This document shows, piece after piece, positions 1,155-14,012 of a DNA stretch of 16,523 nucleotides (positions are counted from its first letter, which is position 1; the number at the start of each line of letters is the position of its first letter). This DNA is from an uncultured Salinimicrobium sp. GTDB taxonomy: Bacteria > Bacteroidota > Bacteroidia > Flavobacteriales > Flavobacteriaceae. Location: positions 1 through 16,523 of the forward strand of contig CAMPJY010000043.1 in NCBI GenBank assembly GCA_946887025.1, written 5' to 3'. The position numbers were made by a program, and so were the translations under genes. The notes under the pieces are model-generated. The model had not been told where the DNA came from and searched no databases. It saw only the letters and a list, made by a program, of their open reading frames with translations.

Positions 1155-1544
1155 TTATTCCTGATGCCGATGTTGGTAAACAGCCATGAAAAGGTTGGAA
1201 GCCATATTGCGGGCCCTGTTCTTGGCAATGTTGGCGCGGTCTCCTTCAAACAGTTCGTCAATCGTCTCGAACCACATATTGAGCCATTCCCCAAAATGTT
1301 TCTGCTCCAGGGTATTATTGAAATGCTGGTCGACCTCCACGTGTGCTTTCATGGGATTCCCCCGGAATTTACTCACGAAGAAGAGGTTGGTTTCCCAGAA
1401 ATCAGTCAGCTTTTCAAGATGAGAGGGCCAATCCTGGATGATCTCATTAAAAACATAGCCAATCTGGTCATTGTTCCGCACCTTGGCGTAAAAGGTGGAA
1501 ACCAGTTTAAAAACGTCCTCCCTGTTCCGGATATCCTGCTTCAT
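1155..1544 (-). CDS. Group III truncated haemoglobin
   Basis: 129 residues, the usual length for a class III (P-type) truncated globin. Recognition rests on 'LTDFWETNLFF' (residues 46-56), 'RGNPMKAHVEVD' (61-72) and 'KHFGEWLNMWFETIDELFEG' (82-101). The last contains the proximal haem ligand His83 in the family-typical H-F-x-x-W-L setting. It is a cytoplasmic haem protein. Relatives bind O2, NO or other small ligands, but class III function is not well established; NO or nitrite chemistry is an inference from context. The gene is second in a two-gene unit, 2 bases after the small membrane protein. It is transcribed from a promoter with an Fnr-type palindrome like those in front of nirK and the cbb3 operon. 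The 18-bp gap to the convergent upstream gene shows no terminator. Confidence 0.88.
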   Translation of the reverse strand: MKQDIRNREDVFKLVSTFYAKVRNNDQIGYVFNEIIQDWPSHLEKLTDFWETNLFFVSKFRGNPMKAHVEVDQHFNNTLEQKHFGEWLNMWFETIDELFEGDRANIAKNRARNMASNLFMAVYQHRHQE

Positions 1545-1546
1545 AT

Positions 1547-1840
1547 TTAAACGTACCTCATTGCAACATTAAGAATCAGCAAAATGCTGCTGGTTGCAAG
1601 GCTCAAAATTAGGGAATTAAAGACAAACCTGGGCTTCATCTGTGCCAGAAATGAAGAGTTATAGCCCATGGCCACCACTACGATCAGGAACAGCTGGACC
1701 ATCTGCGTGAAATCGTGTCCGTTCATCAGTACCACCATGGCTGCTGCGGATCCTAAACAGCTGGAAAGAATGATCCCCAGGGTGGAATAGCCTAGGTACA
1801 ATTGCTCAAAATCTTCGTACAGGTTTTTGTAAAGTTTCAT
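1547..1840 (-). CDS. Small three-helix membrane protein, function unknown
   Basis: 97-residue protein that I cannot assign to a family. About the first 16 residues are polar ('KLYKNLYEDFEQLYLGY'). Three hydrophobic segments follow, near residues 18-38, 46-66 and 72-93, the last ending close to the C-terminus, with a single basic loop 'QMKPRF' between helices 2 and 3. No signal peptide, haem-binding CxxCH or metal motif is visible. It is the first gene after a promoter with an Fnr-type operator and is followed after 2 bases by the truncated haemoglobin gene, so the two are almost certainly co-transcribed and probably act in the same response. A membrane anchor or partner for the globin, or a small-molecule sensor, are guesses only. 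The ATG lies about 20 bases from the predicted transcript start. Confidence 0.75.
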   Translation of the reverse strand: MKLYKNLYEDFEQLYLGYSTLGIILSSCLGSAAAMVVLMNGHDFTQMVQLFLIVVVAMGYNSSFLAQMKPRFVFNSLILSLATSSILLILNVAMRYV

Positions 1841-1865: not shown

Positions 1866-1909
1866 CAAAATTAGGTGAGTGGTGTCGGGAGAAATATGAC
1901 TGAAGTCAT
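1866..1909 (-). promoter_or_regulatory. Fnr/NnrR-type operator plus -7 element of the globin unit
   Basis: A perfect 14-bp palindrome ATGAC-TGAA-GTCAT lies at 1896-1909. A perfect Bacteroidota -7 element, TAATTTTG on the minus strand, lies at 1873-1866. The palindrome centre (1902.5) is 36.5 bp from the outer G of the -7 box, which puts it near -41 if transcription starts about 5 bases further on. The 22 bp between them contain no TTG -33 element, so the promoter should depend on the activator. The start codon is at 1840. Confidence 0.8.
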
Positions 1910-2028
1910 AAAACGCAGGATTTGATGTGGAGGGGTTTTAATAACAGGTTGATTACCAGTCTGAACTGTATATTTCTGAAGCTTGTCTGAAAAGGCAGCC
2001 TCGAATATTTATCTCTGTTTTTGGATTG

Positions 2029-2158
2029 CCCCGCCTTTCAAGGCGGGGATTGGAAATCATCTATTCTTATTGGGCTTTAGCCCAACTGCGATCTTGACTA
2101 AATTGGGCTAAAGCCCTTTCAAAAATATCTCCCGGGGACCCGGACTTAAAAGTCCGGG
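2029..2158. repeat. REP-like array of four GC-rich hairpins
   Basis: Four near-perfect palindromes, each with a 2-base centre, fill this stretch. They are CCCCGCCTT-TC-AAGGCGGGG (2029-2048), TTGGGCT-TT-AGCCCAA (2070-2085), GGGCT-AA-AGCCC (2105-2116) and CCCGGACTT-AA-AAGTCCGGG (2139-2158). Copies two and three are in opposite orientation to each other over TTGGGCTxxAGCCC. The array ends 11 bases past the stop codon of the Crp/Fnr gene. It resembles extragenic palindromes mobilised by RAYT (IS200-type) transposases, and may also shield or terminate the minus-strand transcript. The rest of the 329-base gap 1841-2169 holds only the globin promoter; 1910-2020 shows nothing I can name. Confidence 0.75.
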
Positions 2159-2169
2159 CAATTGAAGAT

Positions 2170-2766
2170 CTACCTAAACGCCTTCCGCTGTTTTATTAAA
2201 AGCTCCCCCTTTTTCTCCAGCCCCTTCATTGCCCTGATTACCGTCTCCACCCGGAGCCCGGTGAGATCGGCGATCTGCTGGCGGGTGAGGTCCACCTTGA
2301 AGGCGTACCGGCCTTCGAGCTTGTGTACGTGTTTCTTCAGATAATCCAGCACCCGCAGGATGCGGTGCTCCGGCTCCTGACTGGAAATCTCGGAAACCAT
2401 GATGGCCTTGTAAAACAGCCTTTTTGCGAGGGTTTCGGTGATTTCCAGATGGTGGTCAGGGTGTTTTGTCAAAAGCTCCAGAAATCGCTCCTTATGCAGC
2501 TGTAGCACCTTGGCATCGGAGGTCGCTTCGGCATTGGCGGGATATTTTACGTTGGCAAACAAGGGAGGCTCCCCGAAACTTTGGCCGGAAGCAAAAAAGC
2601 CCTGGATGAATTCCTTGCCATCGGCGTTGTAATTGTTCATCTTGATCTCCCCTAAGGAAACCTGATAAAAGTTCAGGGCGCTGTCGCCTTCAGAAAAGAG
2701 GCGGTCGCCTTTGGAATAGGTAGCTCTCTTTGCTCCGAAATCCAGCAGAAGGTTTTCCGGGATCAT
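2170..2766 (-). CDS. Crp/Fnr-family transcriptional regulator (candidate NnrR/Fnr-like activator)
   Basis: 198 residues. An N-terminal cyclic-nucleotide-binding-type beta-roll (about 10-110, with 'FSEGDSALNFYQVSLGEIKM' and 'GQSFGEPPLF') is followed by a dimerisation helix and a C-terminal winged helix-turn-helix, 'LTRQQIADLTGLRVETVIRAMKGLEKKGEL' spanning 160-189 (read as two halves: LTRQQIADLTG and LRVETVIRAMKGL). There is no cysteine anywhere, so it cannot carry an Fnr-type 4Fe-4S cluster. The position of Crp's cAMP-binding Arg-Ser reads 'YPANAEA', arguing against cAMP. The recognition helix keeps Glu174 and Arg178, the pair that reads the TGA part of Fnr/Crp half-sites, with Ile177 where Fnr has Ser. 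This is compatible with the ATGAC half-sites found upstream of nirK, cco and other units. It is the last gene of a YceI-like/thioredoxin/regulator unit, 12 bases after thioredoxin. NO or redox sensing, possibly through haem, is inference. Confidence 0.85.
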   Translation of the reverse strand: MIPENLLLDFGAKRATYSKGDRLFSEGDSALNFYQVSLGEIKMNNYNADGKEFIQGFFASGQSFGEPPLFANVKYPANAEATSDAKVLQLHKERFLELLTKHPDHHLEITETLAKRLFYKAIMVSEISSQEPEHRILRVLDYLKKHVHKLEGRYAFKVDLTRQQIADLTGLRVETVIRAMKGLEKKGELLIKQRKAFR

Positions 2767-2778
2767 TAGGTTGTCGGT

Positions 2779-3078
2779 TTATTGATGGGTGCGTATAAGT
2801 TGTACGAGTTCGTGTTTGGGAACCACGCCCGACTGCCGCCATAGCTGATTTCCGTTCTTGAAAAGGATTAGAGTAGGGACCCCCTGTACCTGATACTTAC
2901 CTGCCAAGGCCTGGTTCTTGTCCACATCTATCTTGACAATTTTCACCCCTTCCCCCAGTTCTGCTTTTGCATCCTCAAGAATAGGAGCCAGGGCTTTACA
3001 GGGGCCGCACCAGGTGGCGAAGAAATCCACCAGCACCGGCTTTTCATCGTTTATGATCTGGCTGAAACTGCTTTTCAT
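2779..3078 (-). CDS. Thioredoxin
   Basis: 99-residue single-domain thioredoxin with the canonical active site W-C-G-P-C-K (Cys24, Cys27), the preceding '[20 protein letters not shown]' strand-helix, and the cis-proline motif '[12 protein letters not shown]' (Pro68). There is no signal peptide, so it should be cytoplasmic and reduce disulfides. At 99 residues it is slightly shorter than E. coli TrxA (about 108), mostly at the N-terminus. It sits between the YceI-like gene (30-base gap) and the Crp/Fnr regulator (12-base gap) on the same strand, which implies one transcript. Thioredoxin genes beside such regulators may supply reducing power during the shift between oxic and anoxic growth, but no specific partner can be named. 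The ATG at 3076-3078 is preceded by an A-rich leader. Confidence 0.92.
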
Positions 3079-3108
3079 GGTTTTCTGTTTAAGGTTTGCT
3101 GCCCTAAT

Positions 3109-3696
3109 TTAATCAATTTTACCGGACTCCGCCACCGCTAAATTGAAGCTTATCACGATATCTTCCTTTACCTTGATCAGCCCGAAGGCTTTCTTTGGAG
3201 GTTCCAGGCCGAAATCCTTTATATCCAGTTTCAGTCTGCCTTCAAAGCAGGTGACGGGACTGCTCAGCAGCTTCACCGGAAGATCATACAGCTTTTCATT
3301 TCCCGCTATTCTTATGCTTACACTGGCTATGGCTGAGGTAGCCGATTTCAGAAGTATTTTCTTCAGCTCCAGTTCTATCGAGGGATGTTCCCCGGTCTGC
3401 AGCAGGGCGTGGAAATCCTTGTTGATCTGTTTGTTTCCGCAGTCGAAGCCCCTGTTGTTAAGGACCAGGATTGCATTGCTGAAAGCAATCATGTCCCCTT
3501 TTTCTGAATAGGTGACTGCACAGTTGGTGGGTAACATCCCGGGTTCGAAGTTACACCCGAAATCACTGATGTTGGTATCTCCCGAAATCAGTAACTGACT
3601 CTGGGGCAGGATATACAGGGTTTTCTGCCTGAAGCCGTTCTGCCCAAAGGCAAGGCCTGTAAAAGAAAGGATCAGATAGAGGATTATTTTTTTCAT
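3109..3696 (-). CDS. YceI-like periplasmic protein with four cysteines
   Basis: 195 residues with a clear signal peptide (MKKIILYLILSFTGLAFGQ, cleavage near Gly-Gln-Asn). The mature part follows a YceI-like beta-barrel plan: an early strand 'LLISGDTNISDF', a middle 'NKDFHALLQTGEHPSIELELKKI', a late 'GRLKLDIKDFGLEPPKKAFGLIKVKEDIVISFNL'. YceI domains bind amphiphilic or polyisoprenoid molecules in the periplasm. Unlike the other YceI protein in this window it carries four mature cysteines (in DFGCNF, PTNCAV, FDCGNK and VTCFEG), enough for two disulfides. It is the first gene of a unit with thioredoxin and the Crp/Fnr regulator. Only 61 bases separate it from the porin-like gene, and a terminator occupies the middle of them. 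Cellular role unknown. Confidence 0.7.
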   Translation of the reverse strand: MKKIILYLILSFTGLAFGQNGFRQKTLYILPQSQLLISGDTNISDFGCNFEPGMLPTNCAVTYSEKGDMIAFSNAILVLNNRGFDCGNKQINKDFHALLQTGEHPSIELELKKILLKSATSAIASVSIRIAGNEKLYDLPVKLLSSPVTCFEGRLKLDIKDFGLEPPKKAFGLIKVKEDIVISFNLAVAESGKID

Positions 3697-3705
3697 GGCT
3701 TAAAG

Positions 3706-3736
3706 TAAAAAATGGGGAGAAGCTGCTTCTCCCCAT
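3706..3736 (-). terminator. Intrinsic terminator of the YceI-porin unit
   Basis: On the minus strand an 11-bp perfect stem ATGGGGAGAAG/CTTCTCCCCAT (3736-3726 with 3722-3712) closes a 3-base loop and is followed by a run of six T residues (3712-3707). It begins 22 bases past the stop codon of the porin-like gene at 3758. This is the clearest Rho-independent terminator in the window and separates the porin unit from the YceI-like/thioredoxin/regulator unit. Confidence 0.85.
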
Positions 3737-3757
3737 CTGGCTAATTAAAACAGGTTG

Positions 3758-5017
3758 TCAGAAACTTATCACCGCTTCCAGAACGAAGCCGTTGAACTGG
3801 CCATGGTTCCTGATATCGGTAAGCGGGAAGTCGTTGTATTCCTGGTTCACATACTCCAGTTTTGCAAGTATGTTTCTGGTCATGAACCAGCCGGCTGCAA
3901 GGTTGTATCTGGTAATGTCGATCTCGTTTCCACCAGCCATCTCACCTTCCACCAGATTATAGCGTCCTCCCAGGTAGAAGTTTTCAGCCTGCCCGAAGCG
4001 GTAGATCAATTCCCCTGCATACTGGCTGAAGCTCCTTTCATCCTGTTCGGCAGCCGCTTTCCCTGTAGCCCTTTCATAGGTTCCGAAGAATTCGAGACCC
4101 TGATACTTGATGAAAGGATTGATCATGAAGGCTGTCAGCTCGTTTCTGAGGCCGGGATTGAATCTTCCTGAGGTGAAGTTGGCTGCAGCGGTGGCTTCGG
4201 GATTCTCCATCACGAAATAGTATCTTGATCCGGCCCGGTCGGCACTGTACAGGTAGGCGTTGGCGCTTTTATTGGTGTGATAAACAGAGCCGGTCAGCCT
4301 GAACCTGAAGTCGTCGTTAAAATAGCTGTCGTAGCCTATTTTTGCCAGGTAAGAAGGAGCGGTGGCCTCAGGATTATTCACTCCCTGGTTCAGTTTCCCG
4401 TTGGTCATCCCGACCATCCCAATGAAGCCATTATCCCTGTAGTACACTTCTCCACCCACCTCGGTAGTAAAGGCATCCATGATCAGGTTGCCAACAAAAG
4501 GGTTGTAAAGTGTCATGGCGTTATCGCTTCTTCTGAAATGGGCGTCGCCGTAGTTATTTTCCATGTGCCCGATCTTGATGGTCACCTTGTTCATCAGGTC
4601 TTCCATAAAACCTTCACTGATGAAGTCAAGTTTATCGATCTGGATATATCCCCCTTTCACATAAGGCTCGGGGTGGTGACGAGAAGAAAGGTAGGTCCTG
4701 AGGTGCAGGTTTACCCCGTCGTACAGTTCCACATCAAGATCAAGGTTGGCAGTGGGCAGGTTAAAGTTATCCCCAATCGGGATCAACGGAAGTTCTCCTG
4801 AGTTCTCGTGGTCCAGGGCCTGGAACTGGATGGCAAATGCCCCTCCGACCTTCACGTCGACGCCATCGAAGGAGGTCAGCGTGTCCTTGGGAGCTTCAAA
4901 CTGGTCGATGCCCTGCTGGTCGGGAAATCGATAGTTGTCAAGAGCATTCTGGGCCTGCAGCTGGAAAGCCAGCAGGGAAGGAAAAAGTATAACGAAAAAT
5001 CTATAAGCAGTTTTCAT
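3758..5017 (-). CDS. Outer-membrane porin-like beta-barrel protein
   Basis: 419 residues with a signal peptide (MKTAYRFFVILFPSLLAFQLQAQ, cleaved near Ala-Gln). The mature chain is made of alternating amphipathic strands typical of a beta-barrel: 'DVKVGGAFAIQFQAL', 'ANLDLDVELYDGVNLHLRTYLSS', 'TTEVGGEVYYRDNGFIGMVGMTNGKL', 'YNLAAGWFMTRNILAKLEYVNQEY'. It ends in '...FVLEAVISF', with the C-terminal Phe used in outer-membrane insertion. The layout resembles phosphate-selective porin O/P or DcaP-type channels, though I cannot fix the subfamily or substrate. It is 23 bases downstream of the classical YceI gene, whose promoter carries an Fnr-type site, and is followed by a strong terminator. Passage of an anion such as nitrate or nitrite is conceivable given the setting but is inference. 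Confidence 0.78.
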   Translation of the reverse strand: MKTAYRFFVILFPSLLAFQLQAQNALDNYRFPDQQGIDQFEAPKDTLTSFDGVDVKVGGAFAIQFQALDHENSGELPLIPIGDNFNLPTANLDLDVELYDGVNLHLRTYLSSRHHPEPYVKGGYIQIDKLDFISEGFMEDLMNKVTIKIGHMENNYGDAHFRRSDNAMTLYNPFVGNLIMDAFTTEVGGEVYYRDNGFIGMVGMTNGKLNQGVNNPEATAPSYLAKIGYDSYFNDDFRFRLTGSVYHTNKSANAYLYSADRAGSRYYFVMENPEATAAANFTSGRFNPGLRNELTAFMINPFIKYQGLEFFGTYERATGKAAAEQDERSFSQYAGELIYRFGQAENFYLGGRYNLVEGEMAGGNEIDITRYNLAAGWFMTRNILAKLEYVNQEYNDFPLTDIRNHGQFNGFVLEAVISF

Positions 5018-5040
5018 TTTGGATATTGTTTAATGTTGTA

Positions 5041-5643
5041 TTACTGGATGTTGTTGTTGGTAAATGTGGCTTTCAGGCTCACAGTTACGGCATCTCCCGT
5101 TGTAATGGCGCCTAACATGGCGGTGGGGGGATCCACTTTGTAGTCGGTCATCTTGATTTCCTTGCTTCCGGTAAGTATGATTTTGTCTGCAGATACCTTT
5201 GCTTCAAAAATTACATCCACCGGTTTTCTGGTACCTGCAATGGTTAAGTAACCGCTGGTGCTGATCTTACACTGGCCTGCGGCGTTGCAGTCCAGGGTTT
5301 TAACTTTTTCGAGTTTATAGATGATGTTCTTATGGGTTTTGGTATTTAAGGCTTTATAAGTGTTCTTGTCCATTCCGCCTTTCCCGCTCTTCAGGTTTTC
5401 AGCGGGAACGCTGAATTCCAGGGTTTCGAGCCTGACCAGTTTTCCGTTTTCAAAGCTGGCGGTAAGGCTGCCCTGGAAGCTTTCAGAAATGATGGTCCAG
5501 TCGTGAACGTTGGAGCTGCCGTCGACTTTGATGGTAGAGTTGGTTTTCTCAACAGTGAAGGTCTGTGCGGTGATGAGTTGGGTGAAGAAAAACACCAGGG
5601 CCAGTGTTCCGAGTGCCAGTTTTATTGTTTTAAGCGTCTTCAT
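5041..5643 (-). CDS. YceI family periplasmic protein
   Basis: 200 residues from the ATG at 5641-5643. The frame stays open further upstream to 5742, but that extension would place 33 charged, non-conserved residues before a perfect signal peptide (MKTLKTIKLALGTLALVFFFTQLITAQ) and would cover the operator, so the internal ATG is preferred. The mature protein has YceI hallmarks: 'TIKVDGSSNVHDWT', 'LETLEFSVPAENLKSG', 'KNIIYKLEKV', 'GYLTIAGTRKPVDVIFEA' and the ending 'DYKVDPPTAMLGAITTGDAVTVSLKATF'. YceI proteins are lipocalin-like periplasmic barrels that bind isoprenoid-type ligands in structures solved for the family. It heads a two-gene unit with the porin-like gene and is probably activated by the Fnr-type site about 52 bases upstream. 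Its contribution to respiration is unknown. Confidence 0.88.
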   Translation of the reverse strand: MKTLKTIKLALGTLALVFFFTQLITAQTFTVEKTNSTIKVDGSSNVHDWTIISESFQGSLTASFENGKLVRLETLEFSVPAENLKSGKGGMDKNTYKALNTKTHKNIIYKLEKVKTLDCNAAGQCKISTSGYLTIAGTRKPVDVIFEAKVSADKIILTGSKEIKMTDYKVDPPTAMLGAITTGDAVTVSLKATFTNNNIQ

Positions 5644-5664
5644 GGTTATTGTTATTTGTTGTAG

Positions 5665-5708
5665 TAAAGTTGCGACAGAATAAGGGGTGGAAGTATGACG
5701 GGAATCAG
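5665..5708 (-). promoter_or_regulatory. Degenerate Fnr/NnrR-type operator plus weak -7 element of the YceI-porin unit
   Basis: ATGAC-GGGA-ATCAG at 5695-5708 matches the ATGAY-N4-RTCAT palindrome except for the last base. At exactly the same 36.5-bp spacing as in the three stronger promoters lies CAACTTTA (minus strand, 5672-5665), which keeps four of the six fixed bases of TAnnTTTG. No TTG -33 element is present in between. The start codon is at 5643. The fixed geometry supports the call more than the individual matches do. Confidence 0.58.
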
Positions 5709-5877
5709 GAAAGCCGCAGAATTTCGACAGGGAAAATGGCATATGAATATAATCGGGAGCTGATTTTGGTCAGTTTTTATCGATCCCGGAATTTATAGCT
5801 TGTAAAATGAGAATATGGCAATCTGAAACCAGAAGGAGGGGTTGTTTCAGGTTGATTATGAGGGGGTTGAAAACATT

Positions 5878-5963
5878 GCGACCTGATCAGGGGATCAGGT
5901 CGCAACGGGAATCTGGAGATTCCCACTCGTTTGCGCTCCGATCTGGAGATCGGGCGCAGCGAG
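5878..5963. repeat. REP-like array of three palindromes
   Basis: Three palindromes follow one another: GCGACCTGATC-AGGG-GATCAGGTCGC (5878-5903), GGGAATCT-GG-AGATTCCC (5907-5924), and a longer bulged one at 5926-5963 whose core is CCGATCT-GG-AGATCGG with outer arms CTCG...TGCGC and GCGCA...CGAG. The second and third share the core ATCT-GG-AGAT. The array begins 30 bases past the stop codon of the CoA-transferase gene, downstream of the long cco unit. This and its internal similarity suggest a REP/RAYT-type mobile palindrome. The rest of 5644-5992 contains the YceI promoter and otherwise nothing I can assign. Confidence 0.72.
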
Positions 5964-5992
5964 TTTGGCCAGCGATTACGGAAATGAGGTGT

Positions 5993-7270
5993 TTACGAGT
6001 AGTATCGCTGATGGGCTTCCTTTTCCAGAGCTTCCCGATGGTCGGGGTGGGCAATAGATATAAGTTCCTTGGCCCGCTGTTTCAGGTTCTTTCCGTATAG
6101 GTTCACAACACCGTATTCAGTGGCGATATAATGCACGTGGGCCCTGGTGGTGGTTACCCCGGCGCCTTCCTTCAAAAATGGAACTATTTTGGACACCCCT
6201 TTATTGGTCACCGAAGGCAAAGCGAAAATGGCTTTTCCACCTTCAGAAAGCGAAGCTCCACGGATAAAATCCATCTGTCCCCCTACACCGGAATACTGAT
6301 ACTTCCCAATGGTGTCGGCACAGATCTGTCCGCAGATATCGATTTCTATTGCGGAGTTGATGGCTGTCACTTTTGGGTTCCTCCTGATGATGGCGGTATC
6401 ATTGGTGTAGGCCGCTTCCTTAAAATGCACCAGGGGGTTGTCGTTTACGAAATCATATAAGTCCTGGGAGCCGACCGCAAAGGAGGTTACAATTTTCCCG
6501 GTCTTGACCTGCTTCTTCTCTCCCGTAATCACTCCTGATTTCACCAGCGGCAGGATCCCGTCAGAGAACATTTCCGTATGTATCCCCAGGTGTTTATGGT
6601 TCGTAAGATTGGAAAGCACCACATTGGGAATACCCCCAATTCCCATTTGCAGGGTGGCTCCATCTTCAATAAGGTTGGCCACGTGATATCCGATCTTCTT
6701 CTCGATTTCTGAAGGGCTGCTGAGGGCGTGGCCATGGATCGGTTCATTCACCTCAATGGCAGCGGCAATCCTGCTTACGTGAAGGATTCCATCCCCATGG
6801 GTCCTTGGCACGTTCGGATTCACCTGGGCAATAATGGTTTTGGCAGTTTCAATGGCGGGAAGAGTGACATCTACTGACACCCCAAGCGAACAGTACCCGT
6901 GTTTATCCGGAGGGGATACCTGTACGAGCGCCACATCCAGGGGCAGGATCTTTCTCCTGAAAAGCAGGTGTACCTCGCTGAGAAAAATGGGGATATAGGC
7001 GCCGTGTTCTGAATTGACATTGCGTCTGACATTCCCTCCTACAAAACAGCTGTTTACGTGAAATGCCTCGTTAAATGGTTCCTGCGTGTAGATGGCTTCG
7101 CCTTCGGTGTGGATGGAAAAGATCTCCACCTCCTTCAGCTCCTTGTAGCGTCGGCACATGGCATTTGTCAGGGTCACCGGCGTCATGGCAGCGCCCTGAA
7201 TAAAGACGCGGTCGCCGGATTTTACAAGGTTTACTGCCTGGTCCTGGGTAACTATATGTATTCCGTTCAT
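5993..7270 (-). CDS. Acetyl-CoA hydrolase/CoA-transferase family protein (4-hydroxybutyrate CoA-transferase-like)
   Basis: 425 residues from the ATG at 7268-7270; an upstream in-frame TTG (7291) is less likely because the ATG follows an A-rich leader and directly begins the conserved 'IHIVTQDQAVNLVKSGDRVFIQG'. Typical family I CoA-transferase elements are 'GDGILHVSRI', 'LIEDGATLQMGIGGIPNVVL', 'HLGIHTEMFSDGILPLVKSG' (Glu233 sits where related enzymes carry the glutamyl-CoA-forming residue, an assignment made from memory), 'AINSAIEIDICGQ' and 'GVGGQMDFIRGA'. The length fits 4-hydroxybutyrate or acetate CoA-transferases (about 430). It is a cytoplasmic enzyme that moves CoA between carboxylic acids such as acetate, succinate or 4-hydroxybutyrate; the physiological pair cannot be read from sequence. 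It lies 77 bases after the sulfite-exporter-like gene on the same strand, so it may be read from the cco promoter or its own. No Fnr palindrome was found in that gap. Confidence 0.88.
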   Translation of the reverse strand: MNGIHIVTQDQAVNLVKSGDRVFIQGAAMTPVTLTNAMCRRYKELKEVEIFSIHTEGEAIYTQEPFNEAFHVNSCFVGGNVRRNVNSEHGAYIPIFLSEVHLLFRRKILPLDVALVQVSPPDKHGYCSLGVSVDVTLPAIETAKTIIAQVNPNVPRTHGDGILHVSRIAAAIEVNEPIHGHALSSPSEIEKKIGYHVANLIEDGATLQMGIGGIPNVVLSNLTNHKHLGIHTEMFSDGILPLVKSGVITGEKKQVKTGKIVTSFAVGSQDLYDFVNDNPLVHFKEAAYTNDTAIIRRNPKVTAINSAIEIDICGQICADTIGKYQYSGVGGQMDFIRGASLSEGGKAIFALPSVTNKGVSKIVPFLKEGAGVTTTRAHVHYIATEYGVVNLYGKNLKQRAKELISIAHPDHREALEKEAHQRYYS

Positions 7271-7347
7271 GTTGGTGTTGTTGTTTTTCAATTGAGGATA
7301 AGAAGTTACTAATTCAAGCAGGGATTTTTCAAAAAATTATATTAATA

Positions 7348-8049
7348 CTAATGACAGCTGGCTCCTGCAGTCACCATCTCCATTACCGGGGCGGGGGAGA
7401 TGTAGGGGATGCCAAGTCCCAGGCCTCTGAGAATAAACAGCATTCCCACCAGGAGCACAAAAATCGGCACCAGTTTCCTCACCCTTTGCCGGGGCACCCG
7501 GTTGAGAAGACCTCTGGAATAGACCGCAGTGGTCATCAGGGGAACAGTCCCAAGTCCGAACAGAAACATATACAAACTTGCTTCCCATAACGCGGTGGTG
7601 GCAACGGCTCCAAGAACAGCCAGGTATACCAGTCCGCAGGGCAGCAATCCATTGAGAAAACCTATAGTGAAAAAGGTATCGGGGGTTTTTCTTTTCAGGG
7701 CCTTCCCCAGGGATGACTGAACCTTATGTACCAGCCGGAGCCAGGGGTTGCTGAATTTTGGAGCCTTGAATTTCAGAAGTGGGAGGAGCACCACCAGGAT
7801 CATCAGGATCCCCATACCGACAGACAGTTGTTGCTGAAAACCAAACAGGTTCAGGCTTTTTCCCACCAGCCCGAATGCCAGCCCGATAATGCTGTAGGCC
7901 AGCAGTCGCCCGCTGTGGTACAGCAGGATCTGAAGGAATTTCTTCAGCTGATTGTCCCGTGATACCGGAAGCATAAAAGCTATGGGACCGCACATTCCCA
8001 CGCAGTGGAAGCTTCCCAGGAGTCCGAATATCAGGGCGGAATAGAGCAT
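7348..8049 (-). CDS. Sulfite exporter TauE/SafE-like membrane protein of the cbb3 cluster
   Basis: 233-residue polytopic membrane protein with about six hydrophobic segments in two halves, each beginning with a cysteine motif: 'GSFHCVGMCGPIAFM' (Cys16, Cys20) and 'GFLNGLLPCGLVYLAVLGA' (Cys138). This arrangement recalls the DsbD/CcdA-related transporters that carry reductant or metal ions, and this subgroup (also called UreH-like) is commonly encoded in cbb3 oxidase clusters of Bacteroidota. The C-terminus ends in 'GASCH', a possible metal ligand. Its start overlaps the stop codon of ccoH by one base (TGATG), so the two are translationally coupled. A role in copper handling or cytochrome c maturation for the oxidase is plausible, especially as no CcoI copper ATPase is encoded beside these genes. 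Sulfite export itself is unlikely to be its task. Confidence 0.82.
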   Translation of the reverse strand: MLYSALIFGLLGSFHCVGMCGPIAFMLPVSRDNQLKKFLQILLYHSGRLLAYSIIGLAFGLVGKSLNLFGFQQQLSVGMGILMILVVLLPLLKFKAPKFSNPWLRLVHKVQSSLGKALKRKTPDTFFTIGFLNGLLPCGLVYLAVLGAVATTALWEASLYMFLFGLGTVPLMTTAVYSRGLLNRVPRQRVRKLVPIFVLLVGMLFILRGLGLGIPYISPAPVMEMVTAGASCH

Positions 8050-8495
8050 CAGTAGGTAAGTTTCTTTTGAAAGAAATAGGCTTCCTGCCCGTATTGCCAG
8101 TCAATTTCAATGTTCCAGCGGCCACCGACCAAACGTTTGTCAGGTACGAGCAATGTATGAGTGGAAAGGGAAACGGGAATTTCAAAATCCAGCTGCTTGT
8201 TCGATGGCCTGTATAGGAACATTTTTCCTTTGATCTTTTCTATGTCGAAATCCTCCGGGAAACGAACGAGGAAGCCGGCCTCCGTTTTTTCCACGCTAAG
8301 GTCCTCCATCAGTTGCTGTGCGTTGCGCTCGTTGTCCAGCTGCTCCTGGAATTCCAGTTCCTTTTTGTAATATTCTTCCACAACAAGGTCATGGTCCAGC
8401 TCCTTATTGGTGGTCATGCTGATGACCAGGAATAGGATGAAACTGATGAAGGCGGCCAGCGCCAGTACAATACCGGTTCCCCAGGAAATTTTCAT
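8049..8495 (-). CDS. ccoH: FixH/CcoH family cbb3 oxidase assembly protein
   Basis: 148 residues with one N-terminal transmembrane helix (about 5-27, 'WGTGIVLALAAFISFILFLVI') preceded by MKIS, then a short polar link 'TTNKELDHDLVVEEYYKKELEFQEQLD' and a periplasmic beta domain with 'FRPEDF'-like and 'YRPSNKQLDFEIPV' strands, closing in 'GRWNIEIDWQYGQEAYFFQKKLTY'. The motif D-H-D-L-V-x-x-x-Y-Y-x-x-E is characteristic of Bacteroidota FixH. In other bacteria CcoH stabilises the CcoN-CcoO-CcoP complex during assembly. It is 5 bases after the cupin gene and overlaps the next gene by one base, so it belongs firmly to the cco operon. Confidence 0.87.
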   Translation of the reverse strand: MKISWGTGIVLALAAFISFILFLVISMTTNKELDHDLVVEEYYKKELEFQEQLDNERNAQQLMEDLSVEKTEAGFLVRFPEDFDIEKIKGKMFLYRPSNKQLDFEIPVSLSTHTLLVPDKRLVGGRWNIEIDWQYGQEAYFFQKKLTY

Positions 8496-8500
8496 AGCTG

Positions 8501-8809
8501 TTATTCTGTTAAATGGCCCTTTATCACAAGAATGATGCTTTCTTCTGAAGCTTCAACCCAATGAGGTTCATCCACCGGGATCTCATACTCGTCGTAAAGT
8601 CCAAGTCTGTTGGCCCCTTCGGCGTTGTTGTAAACCACTTCCCCTTTAATGACCAATAACCTGGCAGGCAGGCTGCTGGTGTGTTTTGGAAGGAGCATAT
8701 CTTTTTTGAAGCCGATGGCCAGCACGTGAAAGCCTTCGCCTTTACGAAGCATTTTGCCTACCGGCTTTTCTGAGGTTTCCAGTTCTTTTAGGATGTTTTT
8801 GATTACCAT
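8501..8809 (-). CDS. Small cupin-fold protein within the cbb3 operon
   Basis: 102 residues, no signal peptide, predicted cytoplasmic all-beta single cupin. Cupin motif 1 is recognisable as 'LPKHTSSLPARLLVIKGEVVYNN' (residues 40-62, read in pieces around the V-I-K-G-E turn), and motif 2 as 'YEIPVDEPHWVEASEESIILVIKG'. Only one histidine is left in each (His43 and His83), so the usual His-x-His/Glu/His metal set is incomplete and metal binding is doubtful. It lies 114 bases after ccoG and 5 bases before ccoH on the same strand, inside the oxidase operon. No established cbb3 assembly factor of this type is known to me; an auxiliary or sensory role is inference. Confidence 0.72.
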   Translation of the reverse strand: MVIKNILKELETSEKPVGKMLRKGEGFHVLAIGFKKDMLLPKHTSSLPARLLVIKGEVVYNNAEGANRLGLYDEYEIPVDEPHWVEASEESIILVIKGHLTE

Positions 8810-8833
8810 AGTATTGTTATTTTGGTTTTTTGG

Positions 8834-8882
8834 GCAACGAATTCACGAATATTTTTTCTGTTTTAATTCATGGAATCGTGGC
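8834..8882. repeat. 49-bp imperfect palindrome, copy 1 (3' of ccoG)
   Basis: Left arm at 8834-8850 (begins GCAACGAATTCACG) pairs with right arm at 8866-8882 (ends GAATCGTGGC) in 13 of 17 positions around an AT-rich 15-base centre. Its left arm matches that of the copy at 10363-10411 in 15 of 17 positions, and both elements are exactly 49 bp. It fills the gap between ccoG and the cupin gene. Such intergenic palindromes may affect mRNA stability between the core oxidase genes and the accessory genes. Confidence 0.68.
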
Positions 8883-8923
8883 GTTTTACATGTTTTATTT
8901 TACGTAGTTGGATTTGTGGCATA

Positions 8924-10345
8924 TTACCTGAAACTTCTGGGGCCCATAAAATTGGTCTCCGTAGTTTCTATCAATTTCTCTCCGCTGAAGATCCCTATCT
9001 CCACTTCCTCCTTTTCTCCATTGAGGATTGCCTGGTTTATTTCGATAAACAGGGAACCTTCGGCCAGACCTTTCCCCGGAACCGCAAGCCGCTCATGCGT
9101 CACCGGCTCAATGGAACCCTTGTGGGAAAGCAGCCTGAAGTGAACATCGGGTATTTCATCATTGGTCTTGTTGATCAGCTTAAAGGTGTACACATTGCTG
9201 ATAAGGTTGTTATCCTTATGCTCGTATAACTGTCCGGGCAGTCGCAACACGGTGGCCTCCACATCGCTTCTCAGGAAAAGCATACCTGACATGAGTCCAA
9301 TAAGTACAAACATCACGGCGGCCACGCCCTTCATTCGGGGGGTTATGCTGAAGCCTCTTTCCTTCTCAATATCCTCTTCAGAATAATATCCTATGAGCCC
9401 TTTAGGCAGGTCCACCTTCATCATCATGTCGTCACAGGCATCGATACAGGCAGTACAGTTGATGCATTCCAGCTGAGTCCCGTTCCTGATGTCAATCCCC
9501 GTGGGGCAAACGTTCACACATTGATTGCAGTCGATACAATCCCCCAGCCCCAGGACCGACCTGTCTTCATTTTTTCTGAATTTGGCGCGTCCAGACTGCT
9601 TTTCTCCGCGTTTGCGGTTATAAGCCACCACCACCGATTTATTATCCAGCAGAACGCTCTGTAAGCGCCCGTAGGGGCAGGCGATGGTACAGACCTGCTC
9701 CCGGAACCAGGCAAAGATGAAATAGAAGACCCCGGTGAAGATCAGCACCCCGAAAAAGGTTCCCAGATGTGCTGCCGGCCCTTCGATGATATATTGCAAT
9801 AGCCTTTTGCTGGTGACCAGATAGGAAAGGAAAACATTGGCAATGACAAAGGAAATGATGGCGAATAAAAACCACTTGATCCCCTTCTTCCGGATCTTTT
9901 CTGCATTCCACTCCTGCCTGTCGAGCCGCATCTGTGCTCCGCGGTCACCCTCAACCCAGTATTCGATCTTTCTGAAGACCATCTCCATAAAGATGGTCTG
10001 GGGGCAGATCCATCCGCAGAAGATCCTTCCGAAGGCGGCGGTGAAGATGGTGATCAGCACCACAGCGATGATCATGCCCACCACTCCCAAATAGAAATCC
10101 TGGGGCCAAAAAGGAAATCCGAAAATATTGAATTCCCTTCCCGCGAAATTGAACAAAAACAGCTGGTTTCCGTTGATGTGGATGAATGGTCCCGACAACA
10201 GCACCGCCAGAAGCAAATAAGTGAACCAGGTGCGGTAGGTGTAGAACCGCCCGCCGGGTTTTTTTGGATATACCCAGGCCCGTTTCCCTTCCCTGGTCAT
10301 GGTGCCGATGAGGTCGCGATAGTCTGTTTCCGGTTTTTTTGCCAT
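8924..10345 (-). CDS. ccoG: CcoG/FixG cytochrome cbb3 oxidase accessory iron-sulfur protein
   Basis: 473 residues, normal for CcoG. Order: a conserved N-terminal segment 'KRAWVYPKKPGGRFYTYRTW', transmembrane helices near 41-57, 84-104, 158-176 and 196-213, the membrane-proximal cysteine motifs 'FCGWICPQ' (Cys110, Cys114) and 'VCTIACPYGRLQS' (Cys219, Cys223), and two ferredoxin 4Fe-4S motifs (Cys270/273/276/280 and Cys294/297/300/304). Then come a last helix near 340-357 and a periplasmic Ig-like FixG C-terminal domain. CcoG has been shown in other bacteria to act in copper reduction and delivery for cbb3 assembly. It lies 73 bases after ccoP and 114 before the cupin gene, each gap holding a copy of the same 49-bp palindrome. 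Confidence 0.96.
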   Translation of the reverse strand: MAKKPETDYRDLIGTMTREGKRAWVYPKKPGGRFYTYRTWFTYLLLAVLLSGPFIHINGNQLFLFNFAGREFNIFGFPFWPQDFYLGVVGMIIAVVLITIFTAAFGRIFCGWICPQTIFMEMVFRKIEYWVEGDRGAQMRLDRQEWNAEKIRKKGIKWFLFAIISFVIANVFLSYLVTSKRLLQYIIEGPAAHLGTFFGVLIFTGVFYFIFAWFREQVCTIACPYGRLQSVLLDNKSVVVAYNRKRGEKQSGRAKFRKNEDRSVLGLGDCIDCNQCVNVCPTGIDIRNGTQLECINCTACIDACDDMMMKVDLPKGLIGYYSEEDIEKERGFSITPRMKGVAAVMFVLIGLMSGMLFLRSDVEATVLRLPGQLYEHKDNNLISNVYTFKLINKTNDEIPDVHFRLLSHKGSIEPVTHERLAVPGKGLAEGSLFIEINQAILNGEKEEVEIGIFSGEKLIETTETNFMGPRSFR

Positions 10346-10362
10346 TTTATGTTATATGTTTT

Positions 10363-10411
10363 GCCACGAATTCACGAGTAATTATATTTTTCTCATTCCT
10401 GTGTTCGTGGC
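10363..10411. repeat. 49-bp imperfect palindrome, copy 2 (between ccoP and ccoG)
   Basis: Left arm 10363-10379 (begins GCCACGAATTCACG) and right arm 10395-10411 (ends GTTCGTGGC) pair in 13 of 17 positions. The element has the same 49-bp length and orientation as the copy at 8834-8882. It separates the core oxidase genes (ccoNO, ccoQ, ccoP) from ccoG and occupies most of the otherwise long 73-base gap. Confidence 0.68.
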
Positions 10412-10418
10412 TGCTTTT

Positions 10419-11294
10419 TTATTCCTGAACCCAGATATCCCCCTCCGCCGCTTTGGGGCTGGCGGGACTGCTGCCCTGAAGGCTCAGTACATAACTCGCC
10501 ACCTGCTGGATCTCCGTAGGTTTCAGGGTGGAATTCCAGGCCACCATCCCTTTCCCGGCACGGCCTCCTTCACTAATTGTATGGAATACATTCTTGATTC
10601 CTCCTCCAAGGATCCAGTGCTCATCCGTTAGGTTGGGCCCGATTCCCCCACCTCCATCGGGTGCGTGGCAGGCCATACAGTTGGATTGGAAGATGGCGGA
10701 GCCGCTTTCCAGATCCCCGGCCTCCGTCAGCAACACCACGCTTTCCGCATCCACCAGGTCGGGCGCGTTTTTCTTGTATTCCTCCACGGCTAATTTCGCT
10801 TCTGCCAGTTCTGTTTCGAGTTCCTCATATTGATTGTCCCCATCCAGTGCGTGATAATAAATCAGGTATCCGGCTGCAAATACTATGGAAGCATAAAAGG
10901 AGTAAAGCCACCAGGGGGGAAGGGTATTGTCCAGCTCCTTGATCCCGTCGTAATTGTGGTCCAGCTCGATATCCCTTTCTTCGGAAAGGGGACGGGAGCC
11001 CATGGCTTTGTTATAAATGCGCTTCAGATCGAAACGGCTCATCCGCTCTTCCCGGACCCTGAGATAACGTTCCCTGGAATCGGAATCCAGGGTCTGGAAC
11101 ATGATGTTCTCAATGGCATTCAGGATGATCTCCAAAGCGATCAGGAACAGCAGTGCCATCAGGACCACGGGAATGAGGACCGGGTATTCCATCAGGGCAC
11201 ATTGGCCTTCTGAATCGATAAAATATTCCAGGGTTGCTACTATCAGCACCATGGCTGCAGGGATGCGGATCCATGCGGGAATTATATGTCTCAT
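10419..11294 (-). CDS. ccoP: Cytochrome c oxidase cbb3-type subunit III (monohaem CcoP)
   Basis: 291 residues. The N-terminal half has hydrophobic segments near 9-23, 38-60 and 127-147, followed by a charged, probably coiled-coil linker ('YEELETELAEAKLAVEEYKKN', residues 156-176) and a single C-terminal cytochrome c domain. The haem-binding motif is CMACH (Cys206, Cys209, His210) with 'GGGGIGPNL' after it and 'GKGMVAW' as the likely Met axial ligand. Proteobacterial CcoP usually carries two haems; one haem and the longer N-terminal region are what I expect for Bacteroidota. It accepts electrons from soluble donors and passes them to CcoO. Its ATG overlaps the ccoQ stop by four bases (ATGA), showing translational coupling. 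Confidence 0.94.
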   Translation of the reverse strand: MRHIIPAWIRIPAAMVLIVATLEYFIDSEGQCALMEYPVLIPVVLMALLFLIALEIILNAIENIMFQTLDSDSRERYLRVREERMSRFDLKRIYNKAMGSRPLSEERDIELDHNYDGIKELDNTLPPWWLYSFYASIVFAAGYLIYYHALDGDNQYEELETELAEAKLAVEEYKKNAPDLVDAESVVLLTEAGDLESGSAIFQSNCMACHAPDGGGGIGPNLTDEHWILGGGIKNVFHTISEGGRAGKGMVAWNSTLKPTEIQQVASYVLSLQGSSPASPKAAEGDIWVQE

Positions 11295-11476
11295 GATCTG
11301 TCCTGGTTTTCGGGTTCTAAGGGAATATTACTCATCGAATCGACATAATCCTTTTTGGCGGTGACCACCCACCAGAACAGGAGCACAAAGAAGATGAAGA
11401 AGATCAGCAGGGAGATCATCGGGTAGATTTCCACTCCCGAGATGCTCTCCATATGGCCTTTTACGAATTTTAGCAT
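11291..11476 (-). CDS. ccoQ: Cytochrome cbb3 oxidase small subunit CcoQ
   Basis: 61-residue protein with one transmembrane helix (about 17-39, 'EIYPMISLLIFFIFFVLLFWWV') followed by the diagnostic 'WWVVTAKKDYVDSMSNIPLE', the form of CcoQ/FixQ found in Bacteroidota. CcoQ stabilises the assembled oxidase in species where it has been tested. It is 6 bases after ccoNO and overlaps ccoP by four bases. Too short for strong domain statistics, but the position and the K-K-D-Y motif make the call firm. Confidence 0.9.
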   Translation of the reverse strand: MLKFVKGHMESISGVEIYPMISLLIFFIFFVLLFWWVVTAKKDYVDSMSNIPLEPENQDRS

Positions 11477-11482
11477 GATGTA

Positions 11483-13681
11483 TTAGTTTGAAGAGGTTGA
11501 GGTTTCAGGATCCTTTATTTTTATGTCTGTTCCAAGTCGCTGGATGTAGGCGATGAGTGCGACGATCTCCCGGTCCCTCATTTCCACGAATTCCAGTCCG
11601 TTTTCCTGTGCGTACTCCTTGTCGGCTTCATAGGTTTTTACAAAGTCAGGGTCGTTGTAGAGGTTCTGCTCTATTTTCGTGGCCTGCCCGTCCATCAGCT
11701 GCTGGGCATTGGCGATTTCTTCTTCTGAATAGGGCACACCCAGTTCCACCATGGCCCTCATTTTTGCCTCGGTATCCGTCCTGTTGTGTTCATCAGTAAT
11801 CAGCCATTTATAACCTGGCATGATGGATCCTGAGGAAGTGCTCTGCGGATCGTACATATGGTTGAAATGCCAGTTATCAGAATACTTTCCGCCTACCCGC
11901 AGCAGGTCGGGCCCGGTGCGCTTGCTTCCCCAGAGGAAGGGGTGGTCATAGACGAATTCCCCCGCCTTGGCAAATTCCCCATAGCGTTCCACCTCACTTC
12001 GGAAAGGACGTACCATCTGGGAATGACAGGAAACACAGCCTTCACGGATGTAGATGTCACGGCCTTCCAGCTCCAGCGGGGTATAAGGTTTCACGCTGGT
12101 AAGGGTGGGTACGTTGGATTTCACCAGAATTGTTGGCACGATCTGAATAATCCCCCCAATAAGGATGGCTACCGTGGCAAGTACTGTCAGCTGCACCGGT
12201 TTACGCTCCAGCCAGGTATGCCAGGCTTCCCCCATCATTCTTTTCCTCGGAATCCTTTGAAGGGCGGCGGCTTCGGCCAGCTCGTCGGTCACTTTGCTTC
12301 CCTGTTTTGCGGTCCTGTAGACGTTGTAGATCAGGATCACCAGTCCGATGAGGTAAAGGGTACCCCCTATAGCCCTCATGGCGTACATCGGGATGATTTC
12401 AGTAACTGTTTCCAGGAAGTTTCCGTAGGTCAGGGTCCCGTCGGGATTAAACTGTTTCCACATGGAAGCCTGAACAAATCCTGCCACGTACAGAGGGATG
12501 GCGTAGAGCATGATCCCCAGCGTTCCTATCCAGAAGTGCAAGTTGGCCAGTTTCTTCGAATAAAGCTCTGTTTTGAACAATCTCGGCACCAGCCAATAGA
12601 TTACCCCAAAGGCGAGGAATCCGTTCCATGCAAGGGCTCCCAGGTGGACGTGCGCAATGATCCAGTCGCTGAAGTGGGCAATGGCGTTTACGTTCTTCAG
12701 CGAAAGCATGGGGCCTTCAAAAGTAGCCATCCCATATCCCGTAAGGGCAACCACCATGAACTTCAGGATAGGATCCGATTTCACCTTATCCCATGCGCCC
12801 CGAAGGGTAAGCAGTCCGTTGATCATCCCTCCCCAGGATGGCATCAGCAGCATCACGGAGAAGGCAACCCCGAGGTTCTGTGCCCATTCCGGTAAGGCAG
12901 AATATAAAAGGTGGTGCGGTCCTGCCCAGATGTAAATGAAGATCAGGGACCAGAAGTGGATGATGGACAATTTATAAGAATATACAGGCCTGTTGGCTGC
13001 CTTGGGAATGAAATAATACATCAGCCCCAGGAAAGGGGTGGTAAGAAAGAAAGCCACGGCATTATGCCCGTACCACCACTGTACCAGCGCATCCTGTACC
13101 CCGGCATATACCGAATAACTCTTCATTCCGGATACAGGGATCGCAAGGCTGTTGAAGATGTGCAGCACGGCTACCGTCACGAAGGTGGCGAGGTAAAACC
13201 ACAGGGCCACGTAGAGGTGGCGCTGCCTTCTTTTCAGCATGGTCCCGATGAGGTTCCATAATCCGATCACCCATACCACTGCTAGGGCAATATCCAATGG
13301 CCATTCCAGTTCGGCGTATTCCTTGGAACTGGTAAAACCCATGGGCAGGGTAATGGCGGCGCCTACGATGACGGCCTGCCAGCCCCAGAAGTTGATCTTG
13401 CTCAGGGTGTCGCTGTACATCCTGGTTTTCAGAAGACGCTGGGTGGAATAATACATCCCCGCAAAAAAGGCATTCCCCACAAAGGCGAAGATCACCGCAT
13501 TGGTGTGAAGCGGACGAAGCCTTCCAAAGCTCAGCCAGGGGATCCCGTCCGTGAGGTTCGGGAACAGAAATAAAAAGGCCAGCAAGAGGCCCACCGACAT
13601 TCCCACAGCCGCCCAGAAGAGGGTGGCGTAGAGGAAGTTTCTTACGATCTTGTTGTCGTAGTAGAACTGCTGCAATTCCAT
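11483..13681 (-). CDS. ccoNO: Fused cbb3 cytochrome c oxidase subunits I and II (CcoN-CcoO)
   Basis: 732-residue natural fusion. Residues about 1-480 are the CcoN haem-copper core with some twelve or more helices. They show 'RLRPLHTNAVIF' (haem ligand His59), 'WWYGHNAVAFFLT' and 'WAGPHHLLYSALPEWAQ' (CuB histidines), and 'HVHLGALAWNG' (haem ligands). Residues about 500-732 are CcoO: one anchor helix ('LTVLATVAILIGGIIQIVP'), then a monohaem cytochrome c with 'GCVSCHSQMVRPF' (Cys549, Cys552, His553) and 'SGSIMPGYKWL' as the Met ligand region. The complex reduces O2 to water with high affinity at the inner membrane. Separate ccoN and ccoO genes are usual in Proteobacteria; the fusion is typical of Bacteroidota. 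It starts 2 bases after ccoS and is followed after 6 bases by ccoQ. Confidence 0.96.
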   Translation of the reverse strand: MELQQFYYDNKIVRNFLYATLFWAAVGMSVGLLLAFLFLFPNLTDGIPWLSFGRLRPLHTNAVIFAFVGNAFFAGMYYSTQRLLKTRMYSDTLSKINFWGWQAVIVGAAITLPMGFTSSKEYAELEWPLDIALAVVWVIGLWNLIGTMLKRRQRHLYVALWFYLATFVTVAVLHIFNSLAIPVSGMKSYSVYAGVQDALVQWWYGHNAVAFFLTTPFLGLMYYFIPKAANRPVYSYKLSIIHFWSLIFIYIWAGPHHLLYSALPEWAQNLGVAFSVMLLMPSWGGMINGLLTLRGAWDKVKSDPILKFMVVALTGYGMATFEGPMLSLKNVNAIAHFSDWIIAHVHLGALAWNGFLAFGVIYWLVPRLFKTELYSKKLANLHFWIGTLGIMLYAIPLYVAGFVQASMWKQFNPDGTLTYGNFLETVTEIIPMYAMRAIGGTLYLIGLVILIYNVYRTAKQGSKVTDELAEAAALQRIPRKRMMGEAWHTWLERKPVQLTVLATVAILIGGIIQIVPTILVKSNVPTLTSVKPYTPLELEGRDIYIREGCVSCHSQMVRPFRSEVERYGEFAKAGEFVYDHPFLWGSKRTGPDLLRVGGKYSDNWHFNHMYDPQSTSSGSIMPGYKWLITDEHNRTDTEAKMRAMVELGVPYSEEEIANAQQLMDGQATKIEQNLYNDPDFVKTYEADKEYAQENGLEFVEMRDREIVALIAYIQRLGTDIKIKDPETSTSSN

Positions 13682-13683
13682 AC

Positions 13684-13866
13684 TTAGTCTAATTTGTCTT
13701 TAGGTTTTATTGATTCAGGTTTCACGAGTTCGTCCTCGAAGAGCATCCGCACAGAGGGGGTATAGCCGTCGTCAAACTGACCACTCCTCACTGCTGCGAT
13801 AAAGGCTATGAAAAACACTACCGCCACCAGGATGCTGACAGCCAGTAAGATGAAAATGACACTCAT
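13684..13866 (-). CDS. ccoS: cbb3 oxidase maturation protein CcoS
   Basis: 60 residues: an N-terminal helix (about 2-25, 'SVIFILLAVSILVAVVFFIAFIAAV') then 'RSGQFDDGYTPSVRMLFEDE', the characteristic CcoS motif S-G-Q-F-D-D-x-x-x-P-S/A-x-R-M-L. CcoS is needed in other bacteria for cofactor insertion (haem b and copper) into the oxidase. It is the first gene of the cco operon here. In many Bacteroidota a ccoI copper-ATPase gene stands directly upstream of ccoS, but here that place is taken by the divergent nirK. The start codon lies about 15 bases from the predicted transcript start, so the leader is short. Confidence 0.92.
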   Translation of the reverse strand: MSVIFILLAVSILVAVVFFIAFIAAVRSGQFDDGYTPSVRMLFEDELVKPESIKPKDKLD

Positions 13867-13885
13867 GGGATTTACTAATATGGCG

Positions 13886-13929
13886 CAAAACTATCAGCTG
13901 TTTCCCTGGCGAAATATGATTTTAATCAT
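13886..13929 (-). promoter_or_regulatory. Fnr/NnrR-type operator plus -7 element of the cbb3 operon
   Basis: The perfect palindrome ATGAT-TTTA-ATCAT lies at 13916-13929 and a perfect -7 element TAGTTTTG (minus strand) at 13893-13886. The palindrome centre (13922.5) is 36.5 bp from the outer G of the -7 box, near -41 of the inferred start. No TTG -33 element occurs between them. The flank GAAAT before the palindrome is the same as at the globin promoter. The site also lies about 53 bp from the nirK palindrome, so two dimers could occupy the divergent region. Confidence 0.82.
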
Positions 13930-13968
13930 GTTTTGAAGACTGGCCTTTTTTTGAAAATTTTAACGGAT

Positions 13969-14012
13969 ATGACCTCAGTCATTAAAATCCCTTCAGTTCG
14001 TCCGCATCTTTG
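13969..14012 (+). promoter_or_regulatory. Fnr/NnrR-type operator plus -7 element of nirK
   Basis: The perfect palindrome ATGAC-CTCA-GTCAT lies at 13969-13982 and CATCTTTG at 14005-14012 matches TAnnTTTG in five of six fixed bases. The centre-to-G distance is again 36.5 bp. No TTG -33 element is present. The nirK start codon at 14048 would leave a leader of about 30 bases that is AT-rich, as is usual in Bacteroidota. Confidence 0.82.

Follow-up and report, generated by a model that had tools for sequence, protein, structure and literature searches.

Four transcription units in a stretch of DNA from an uncultured Salinimicrobium sp. (contig CAMPJY010000043.1, 16,523 nucleotides (nt), here called the window) are preceded by the same palindromic operator, or box, ATGAY-N4-RTCAT. 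These are the globin unit, which consists of mem97 and a group III truncated globin gene, the YceI-porin unit, the cbb3 oxidase operon and nirK. Each operator is paired with a -7 promoter element of the type TAnnTTTG (Table 1). The gap between the two, read directly in the sequence, is 22 nt in all four cases, which puts the operator centre 36.5 base pairs (bp) from the final base of that element. The four sites are likely to be real class II promoters of a low-oxygen and nitrogen-oxide regulon, read here by a receiver-Crp fusion protein, by the Crp/Fnr-family regulator encoded in the window (window Crp), or by both. An earlier reading made from the letters alone (the sequence-only reading) had listed the four pairs, each with the operator centre 36.5 bp from the far end of the -7 element, and had counted perfect -7 elements at two sites, one mismatch at nirK and two at YceI; positions, spacing and mismatch counts are all confirmed.

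The exact palindrome has three matches in the window where 0.06 are expected, and 0 of 200 shuffled sequences reach three. The whole module of palindrome and -7 element, with up to three mismatches, has five matches against a mean of 0.48, and again 0 of 200 shuffles reach this number; one of the five is the palindrome at 1896 taken in the opposite direction. The motif is thus far rarer in shuffled sequence than in the window. A single intergenic region lies between the divergent cbb3 operon and nirK, and their two boxes are 53 bp apart there.

The -7 element of Flavobacterium johnsoniae, TANNTTTG, spans positions -12 (T) to -5 (G), and transcription starts 4 or 5 nt further on (PMC6847099). 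In this register the operator centre is at -41.5, because the G of the -7 element is at -5 and the centre is 36.5 bp away. The window promoters therefore have a dyad operator centred at -41.5 from the predicted start, which is the arrangement of class II Crp/Fnr promoters. Leaders predicted from the coordinates are 21 nt for mem97, 17 for YceI, 15 for ccoS and 31 for nirK. In class II promoters of Escherichia coli a Crp/Fnr dimer at -41.5 contacts RNA polymerase. The likeness includes two 5-bp half-sites with a TGA core as well as the position of the dyad. There are three differences: the half-site is ATGAY here and TTGAT for FNR, TAnnTTTG is present in place of the -10 sequence TATAAT, and the promoter-proximal half is stricter here than the distal half.

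The spacing is conserved in relatives and is far above controls. A scan of cbb3 loci covered the best 80 of at least 590, many from Bacteroidota and a few from other phyla. The exact palindrome with the exact -7 element occurs 52 times at gap 22 versus 0–8 times at each of the other gaps between 5 and 59. When the half-site letters are permuted, 58 of the 59 other arrangements together give one match; the remaining one, AYGAT, overlaps ATGAT and gives 23. Oriented palindromes number 222 with a centre of four bases, compared with 10–38 for centres of 2, 3 and 5–8 bases. Locus L029 has too little upstream DNA and is left out of later counts, where a site at gap 22 or 23 with up to two mismatches is present in 59 of 79 cbb3 loci (control mean 5.25, largest 21) and in 24 of 30 nirK loci (control mean 1.95, largest 6). 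With one mismatch allowed, gap 22 is found in 46/79 cbb3 loci and 21/30 nirK loci, and any other gap in at most 10 and 2, respectively.

Whole-genome scans show the same preference. In eight genomes, gap 22 holds 35 of 49 matches among 31 allowed gaps. The 12 genomes nearest in terms of the window regulator have 164 modules versus 7 for the reversed pattern, or 3 to 25 modules per genome. In 160 genomes, modules with at most one mismatch number 1891 versus 114 for the reversed pattern. The sequence-only reading had described the regulon as local. This is not borne out, as in relatives the regulon is genome-wide.

The named relatives of the window regulator (best 120 of 5363) belong to Salinimicrobium, Antarcticibacterium, Gillisia and Salegentibacter, with 76–80% identity. 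Three genomes (G249, G401 and G015; loci L201–L203) are collinear with the window in the order globin-mem97-[site]-Crp-Trx-YceI-porin-YceI-[site]-cbb3-[site][site]-nirK-FGE. All four intergenic sites are kept in each, i.e., 12/12 sites at gap 22 with no more than two mismatches. Together with the gap-22 peak and the excess over the reversed pattern, this comparison strongly supports the earlier proposal of class II activation near -41.5. Of 24 regulator loci, 23 also have a site upstream of mem97/globin, between these genes and the window-type regulator (control gap pairs have a mean of 2.1, largest 7); L092 is the exception. Six more of the 30 regulator loci have neither mem97 nor globin within 1.5 kb and are not counted. 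The position of the acetyl-CoA hydrolase/transferase gene varies; in the window it closes the cbb3 operon, and in L201–L203 it stands between Trx and YceI.

The two halves of the operator are not equivalent. At 106 sites upstream of mem97/globin, nirK and ccoNO, the outermost position of the promoter-proximal half is T in all but one (105), and that of the distal half varies (A 77, C 23, G 4, T 2). A T-rich stretch follows the palindrome. This asymmetry fits a polarity toward the polymerase and speaks against the palindromes being repressor operators rather than activator sites. The palindrome alone gives no sign of activation or repression, and one group of sites looks repressive: in 16 of 30 off-gap matches in the cbb3 loci, the palindrome is 8–13 nt from the -7 element of a cysteine-type Fnr gene. 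In most of these 16, a -7-like element on the opposite strand stands at gap 22 and faces ccoI, and the arrangement is predicted to give autorepression of the Fnr gene and activation toward ccoI. Fnr-ccoI intergenic regions with such a dual-position palindrome include L010, L017, L026, L038 and L040. However, repressor sites need no fixed distance to the promoter, and the great majority of sites have gap 22. Repression as the general role of the box is therefore very improbable; the position and conservation of the operator suggest that binding would activate transcription.

The genes that follow the box are typical low-oxygen targets and include ccoS, ccoI, hemN, Usp, nirK and nrfH. In the cbb3-locus scan, the genes after 100 sites at gap 21–23 are ccoS (40), ccoI-like ATPase (23), hemN (13), Usp (5), Crp/Fnr (3), CBS proteins (3) and RIC-like proteins (2), and the remainder are single or paired. 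One of the 100 sites has no reading frame in reach, and names other than ccoS and Crp/Fnr were assigned by reading the sequence. In the three collinear genomes, targets were read at 51 of 60 sites, the others being in the cluster or after receiver-Crp; target families were tested on one member each. Genes for hemN and an Rrf2 regulator follow the box in 3/3, and citrate synthase and formate-tetrahydrofolate ligase do so in two. Found in one genome each are nrfH, a NarK-like transporter (below the family cut-off), a 2-oxoacid:acceptor oxidoreductase and a ccoI-like ATPase. Many other targets are single, and some are perhaps due to chance.

Four loci (L037, L055, L061 and L072) have two palindromes exactly 22 bp apart before ccoS with one -7 element, the centres being at -41.5 and -63.5; L060 and L063 have the -63.5 palindrome only. 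Seven matches at gap 44/45 before ccoS represent TAGGTATG, a sequence of the start-codon region, and are an artefact. A code in which C or T at half-site position 5 distinguishes nirK (DNR-like) from cbb3 (FNR-like) sites was considered and is not significant (p = 0.30).

Three clades of Crp/Fnr proteins are candidate readers of the box, and all three adjoin such boxes. Each forms one branch in the tree (support 0.94, 0.97 and 1.0). The E, I and R of the recognition helix (E-x-x-I-R) are invariant in all 42 proteins compared, which comprise 21 Fnr, 7 receiver-Crp and 14 of 31 window-type proteins extracted by a filter. Occurrence was determined in 397 genomes grouped around Arenibacter genome L001, a group that is presumably the Flavobacteriaceae; the genomes are related and some are incomplete, so that p values are only a guide. 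The iron-sulfur-type Fnr is found in 247 of the 397 (expectation value (E) 1e-45) and the cysteine-poor window type in 61 (E 1e-25). The two occur together in 27 genomes, which is less than expected (odds ratio 0.42, p = 0.002).

All four boxes could be read by an iron-sulfur Fnr whose gene is outside the window, as is probably the case in most of the family. It is widespread there, it adjoins the ccoI box, and a Cx2C motif and two further cysteines are present in 21/21 loci read. However, a search at E 1e-45 did not detect it in G015, G249, G265 and G401, the four genomes nearest in regulator identity, or in 8 of the nearest 12; G108, fifth in this order, does have it. Those genomes nevertheless keep 7–25 boxes. 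Together with the low co-occurrence, this makes Fnr an unlikely reader in the window's organism. Of the Fnr-type activation proposed earlier, the Crp/Fnr class II operator stands, while the iron-sulfur protein itself was not found in those four genomes and another Crp/Fnr paralogue may be the reader.

The window Crp acting alone, as a nitric oxide-responsive activator similar to DNR or NnrR, is a further candidate. It has the E-x-x-I-R helix and keeps company with globin and nirK genes, its type has the conserved place beside the mem97-globin box described above, and nirK is present in 24/61 window-type genomes versus 73/397 overall (p = 2e-5). By regulator content, nirK is found in 12/34 genomes with the window type only, 43/220 with Fnr only, 12/27 with both and 6/116 with neither. 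The window Crp has no cysteines (14 window-type proteins compared have 0–4) and thus lacks the N-terminal and internal cluster cysteines of an iron-sulfur Fnr; it also falls short of the curated score for cAMP-CRP (NF008732, 65.9 bits versus a cut-off of 266). No relatives of this regulator were found in viral contigs. DNR, NnrR and HcpR likewise have no Fnr cysteine motif, are found close to nitrogen-oxide genes and carry glutamate at the CRP-181 position, although the Bacteroides HcpR2 motif GTAACnnnnGTTAC is unlike the window box (PMC1274295). Against a sole role, boxes are equally common without the window type (medians 12, 13.5 and 12), and they precede nirK in 18/22 loci from genomes that lack it. 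Genome G094 has the window type, with neither other regulator found, and only 3 boxes. The window Crp is thus not the cause of all boxes, and it is doubtful that it reads the four window sites by itself.

The third clade, receiver-Crp, has the domains Response_reg, cNMP_binding and HTH_Crp_2 in one protein and adjoins a histidine kinase with a PAS domain that aligns best with DosP and FixL. An axial histidine and a distal arginine are haem-pocket residues of FixL and DosP. Both are present in the L215 kinase, aligned to FixL (8js5) and DosP (9cdr), and in seven further stretches, the search pattern having partly required their surroundings. In 8 of 10 loci (L213–L222) a box follows the receiver-Crp gene and precedes a Usp-like gene. 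In 60 of the 116 genomes with neither Fnr nor the window type, the 23 with receiver-Crp have a median of 12 boxes and the 37 without it a median of 1. Receiver-Crp is found in 19 of 20 window-type-only genomes tested, G094 being the exception, and would be expected in the genome of the window as well.

In the reading preferred here, a Crp/Fnr-family dimer would bind ATGAY-N4-RTCAT at -41.5, just upstream of the place where a -33 element would be, and would recruit RNA polymerase to the TAnnTTTG element. The FixL-like PAS kinase, which would switch receiver-Crp in this lineage, is the most likely entry point of the oxygen signal, and the window Crp probably adds a second input, either nitrogen-oxide or redox. 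The YceI-porin unit runs from YceI protein 1 through the porin-like protein, YceI protein 2 and thioredoxin to the window Crp as its last gene, so that this candidate reader has a box in front of its own unit and may amplify its own expression. Rhizobial FixL-FixJ-FixK is comparable in having a haem-PAS-like kinase, a receiver domain and a Crp-type DNA-binding domain near cbb3-type targets. The difference is that receiver and Crp are fused here, so that two proteins would suffice where rhizobia use three. An evenly balanced proposal goes further: across the family one -41.5 box would be read by three sensors, i.e., iron-sulfur Fnr, a globin-tied cysteine-poor Crp, and receiver-Crp with a FixL-like haem kinase, and in the window's lineage Fnr would have been lost, with operators and spacing kept and the oxygen sensor swapped.

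Several observations weigh against the preferred reading. The two-mismatch background reaches 21/79 cbb3, 7/24 mem97/globin and 6/30 nirK loci, and 20/79 cbb3 and 6/30 nirK loci have no site (L146 has nearly no upstream DNA). Genomes G246, G155 and G056 have 12, 17 and 21 boxes, with none of the three regulators found; there may be a fourth reader, or the assemblies may be incomplete. Despite having both Fnr and the window type, G108 carries just 3 boxes and G034 just 2, and no more than 3 are present in 5 of the 46 genomes with Fnr only. The bases directly 3' of the four window palindromes (ATTT, ACTT, ATTT and TAAA) show no TTG at -33 at any of the promoters, as had been noted from the sequence. 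Little weight attaches to this absence, because F. johnsoniae promoters in general scarcely show a -33 motif (PMC6847099). Finally, the YceI site is weak, with three mismatches in all, and is insufficient by itself; it is accepted because it is kept in the three collinear relatives. That site gives some room to a chance resemblance chosen after the fact. However, shuffles, reversed-pattern controls, permuted half-sites and conservation all oppose such an origin, which is refuted for three sites and made unlikely by conservation for the YceI site; for the set as a whole its probability is negligible.

The features of the window are listed in Table 1. The window regulator, the globin, mem97, the porin-like protein and the YceI proteins receive no curated NCBIfam name above the cut-off. 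An FGE-sulfatase-like gene comes after a nirK gene whose product has a cytochrome c-like domain at its C-terminus, both in the window and in L021, L027, L051, L201–L205 and L207. Inverted repeats are present between genes at 2020–2160 and 5880–5970 (e.g., around GGGCTTTAGCCC) and resemble repeat elements or terminators.

Table 1. Operators, -7 elements and genes of the window
Feature	Position	Strand	Remarks
Operator, mem97-globin unit	1896..1909	.	ATGAY-N4-RTCAT, centre -41.5; ATGACTTCAGTCAT in promoter direction, 0 mismatches
-7 element, mem97-globin unit	1866..1873	-	TAATTTTG, 0 mismatches
Operator, cbb3 operon	13916..13929	.	ATGATTAAAATCAT in promoter direction, 0 mismatches
-7 element, cbb3 operon	13886..13893	-	TAGTTTTG, 0 mismatches
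Operator, nirK	13969..13982	.	ATGACCTCAGTCAT in promoter direction, no palindrome mismatch
-7 element, nirK	14005..14012	+	CATCTTTG, 1 mismatch
Operator, YceI-porin unit	5695..5708	.	CTGATTCCCGTCAT in promoter direction, 1 palindrome mismatch
-7 element, YceI-porin unit	5665..5672	-	CAACTTTA, 2 mismatches; relatives have CATCTTTG or CAACTTTG
Group III truncated globin	1155..1544	-	PDB 2ig3, E 1.7e-13
mem97	1547..1840	-	Small predicted membrane protein, no Pfam family
Crp/Fnr-family regulator (window Crp)	2170..2766	-	198 amino acids, no cysteines; PF00027 and HTH_Crp_2; last gene of YceI-porin unit
Thioredoxin (Trx)	2779..3078	-	PF00085
YceI protein 2	3109..3696	-	PF04264
Porin-like protein	3758..5017	-	No Pfam or NCBIfam family; name from the sequence-only reading and the sequence
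YceI protein 1	5041..5643	-	PF04264
Acetyl-CoA hydrolase/transferase	5993..7291	-	PF13336, PF02550; end of cbb3 operon
cbb3 oxidase operon	7348..13866	-	ccoS, ccoNO fusion, Q, P, G, 102-amino-acid protein, H, TauE-like; collinear in L201–L203
Copper nitrite reductase NirK	14048..15511	+	TIGR02376; C-terminal cytochrome c-like domain, ccoP-like match at residues 383–470
FGE-sulfatase-like protein	15628..16413	+	PF03781; 3' of nirK

In the literature searched, the coverage of which lacks most subscription journals, no paper on the box was found; the one study of Crp/Fnr meta-regulons found to cover Flavobacteriales (PMC8510549) assigns its homologue in that order to MalR. The box and its spacing give a specific regulatory code, open to experimental test, for respiration with little oxygen or with nitrite across a large marine bacterial family. 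Besides the respiratory genes, the regulon takes in those for the globin, the small membrane protein mem97, both YceI proteins and the porin-like protein. This may be a case of different sensors sharing one operator. If true, a FixL-FixJ-FixK cascade would be folded into two proteins, and the sensor would have been exchanged under an unchanged regulon.

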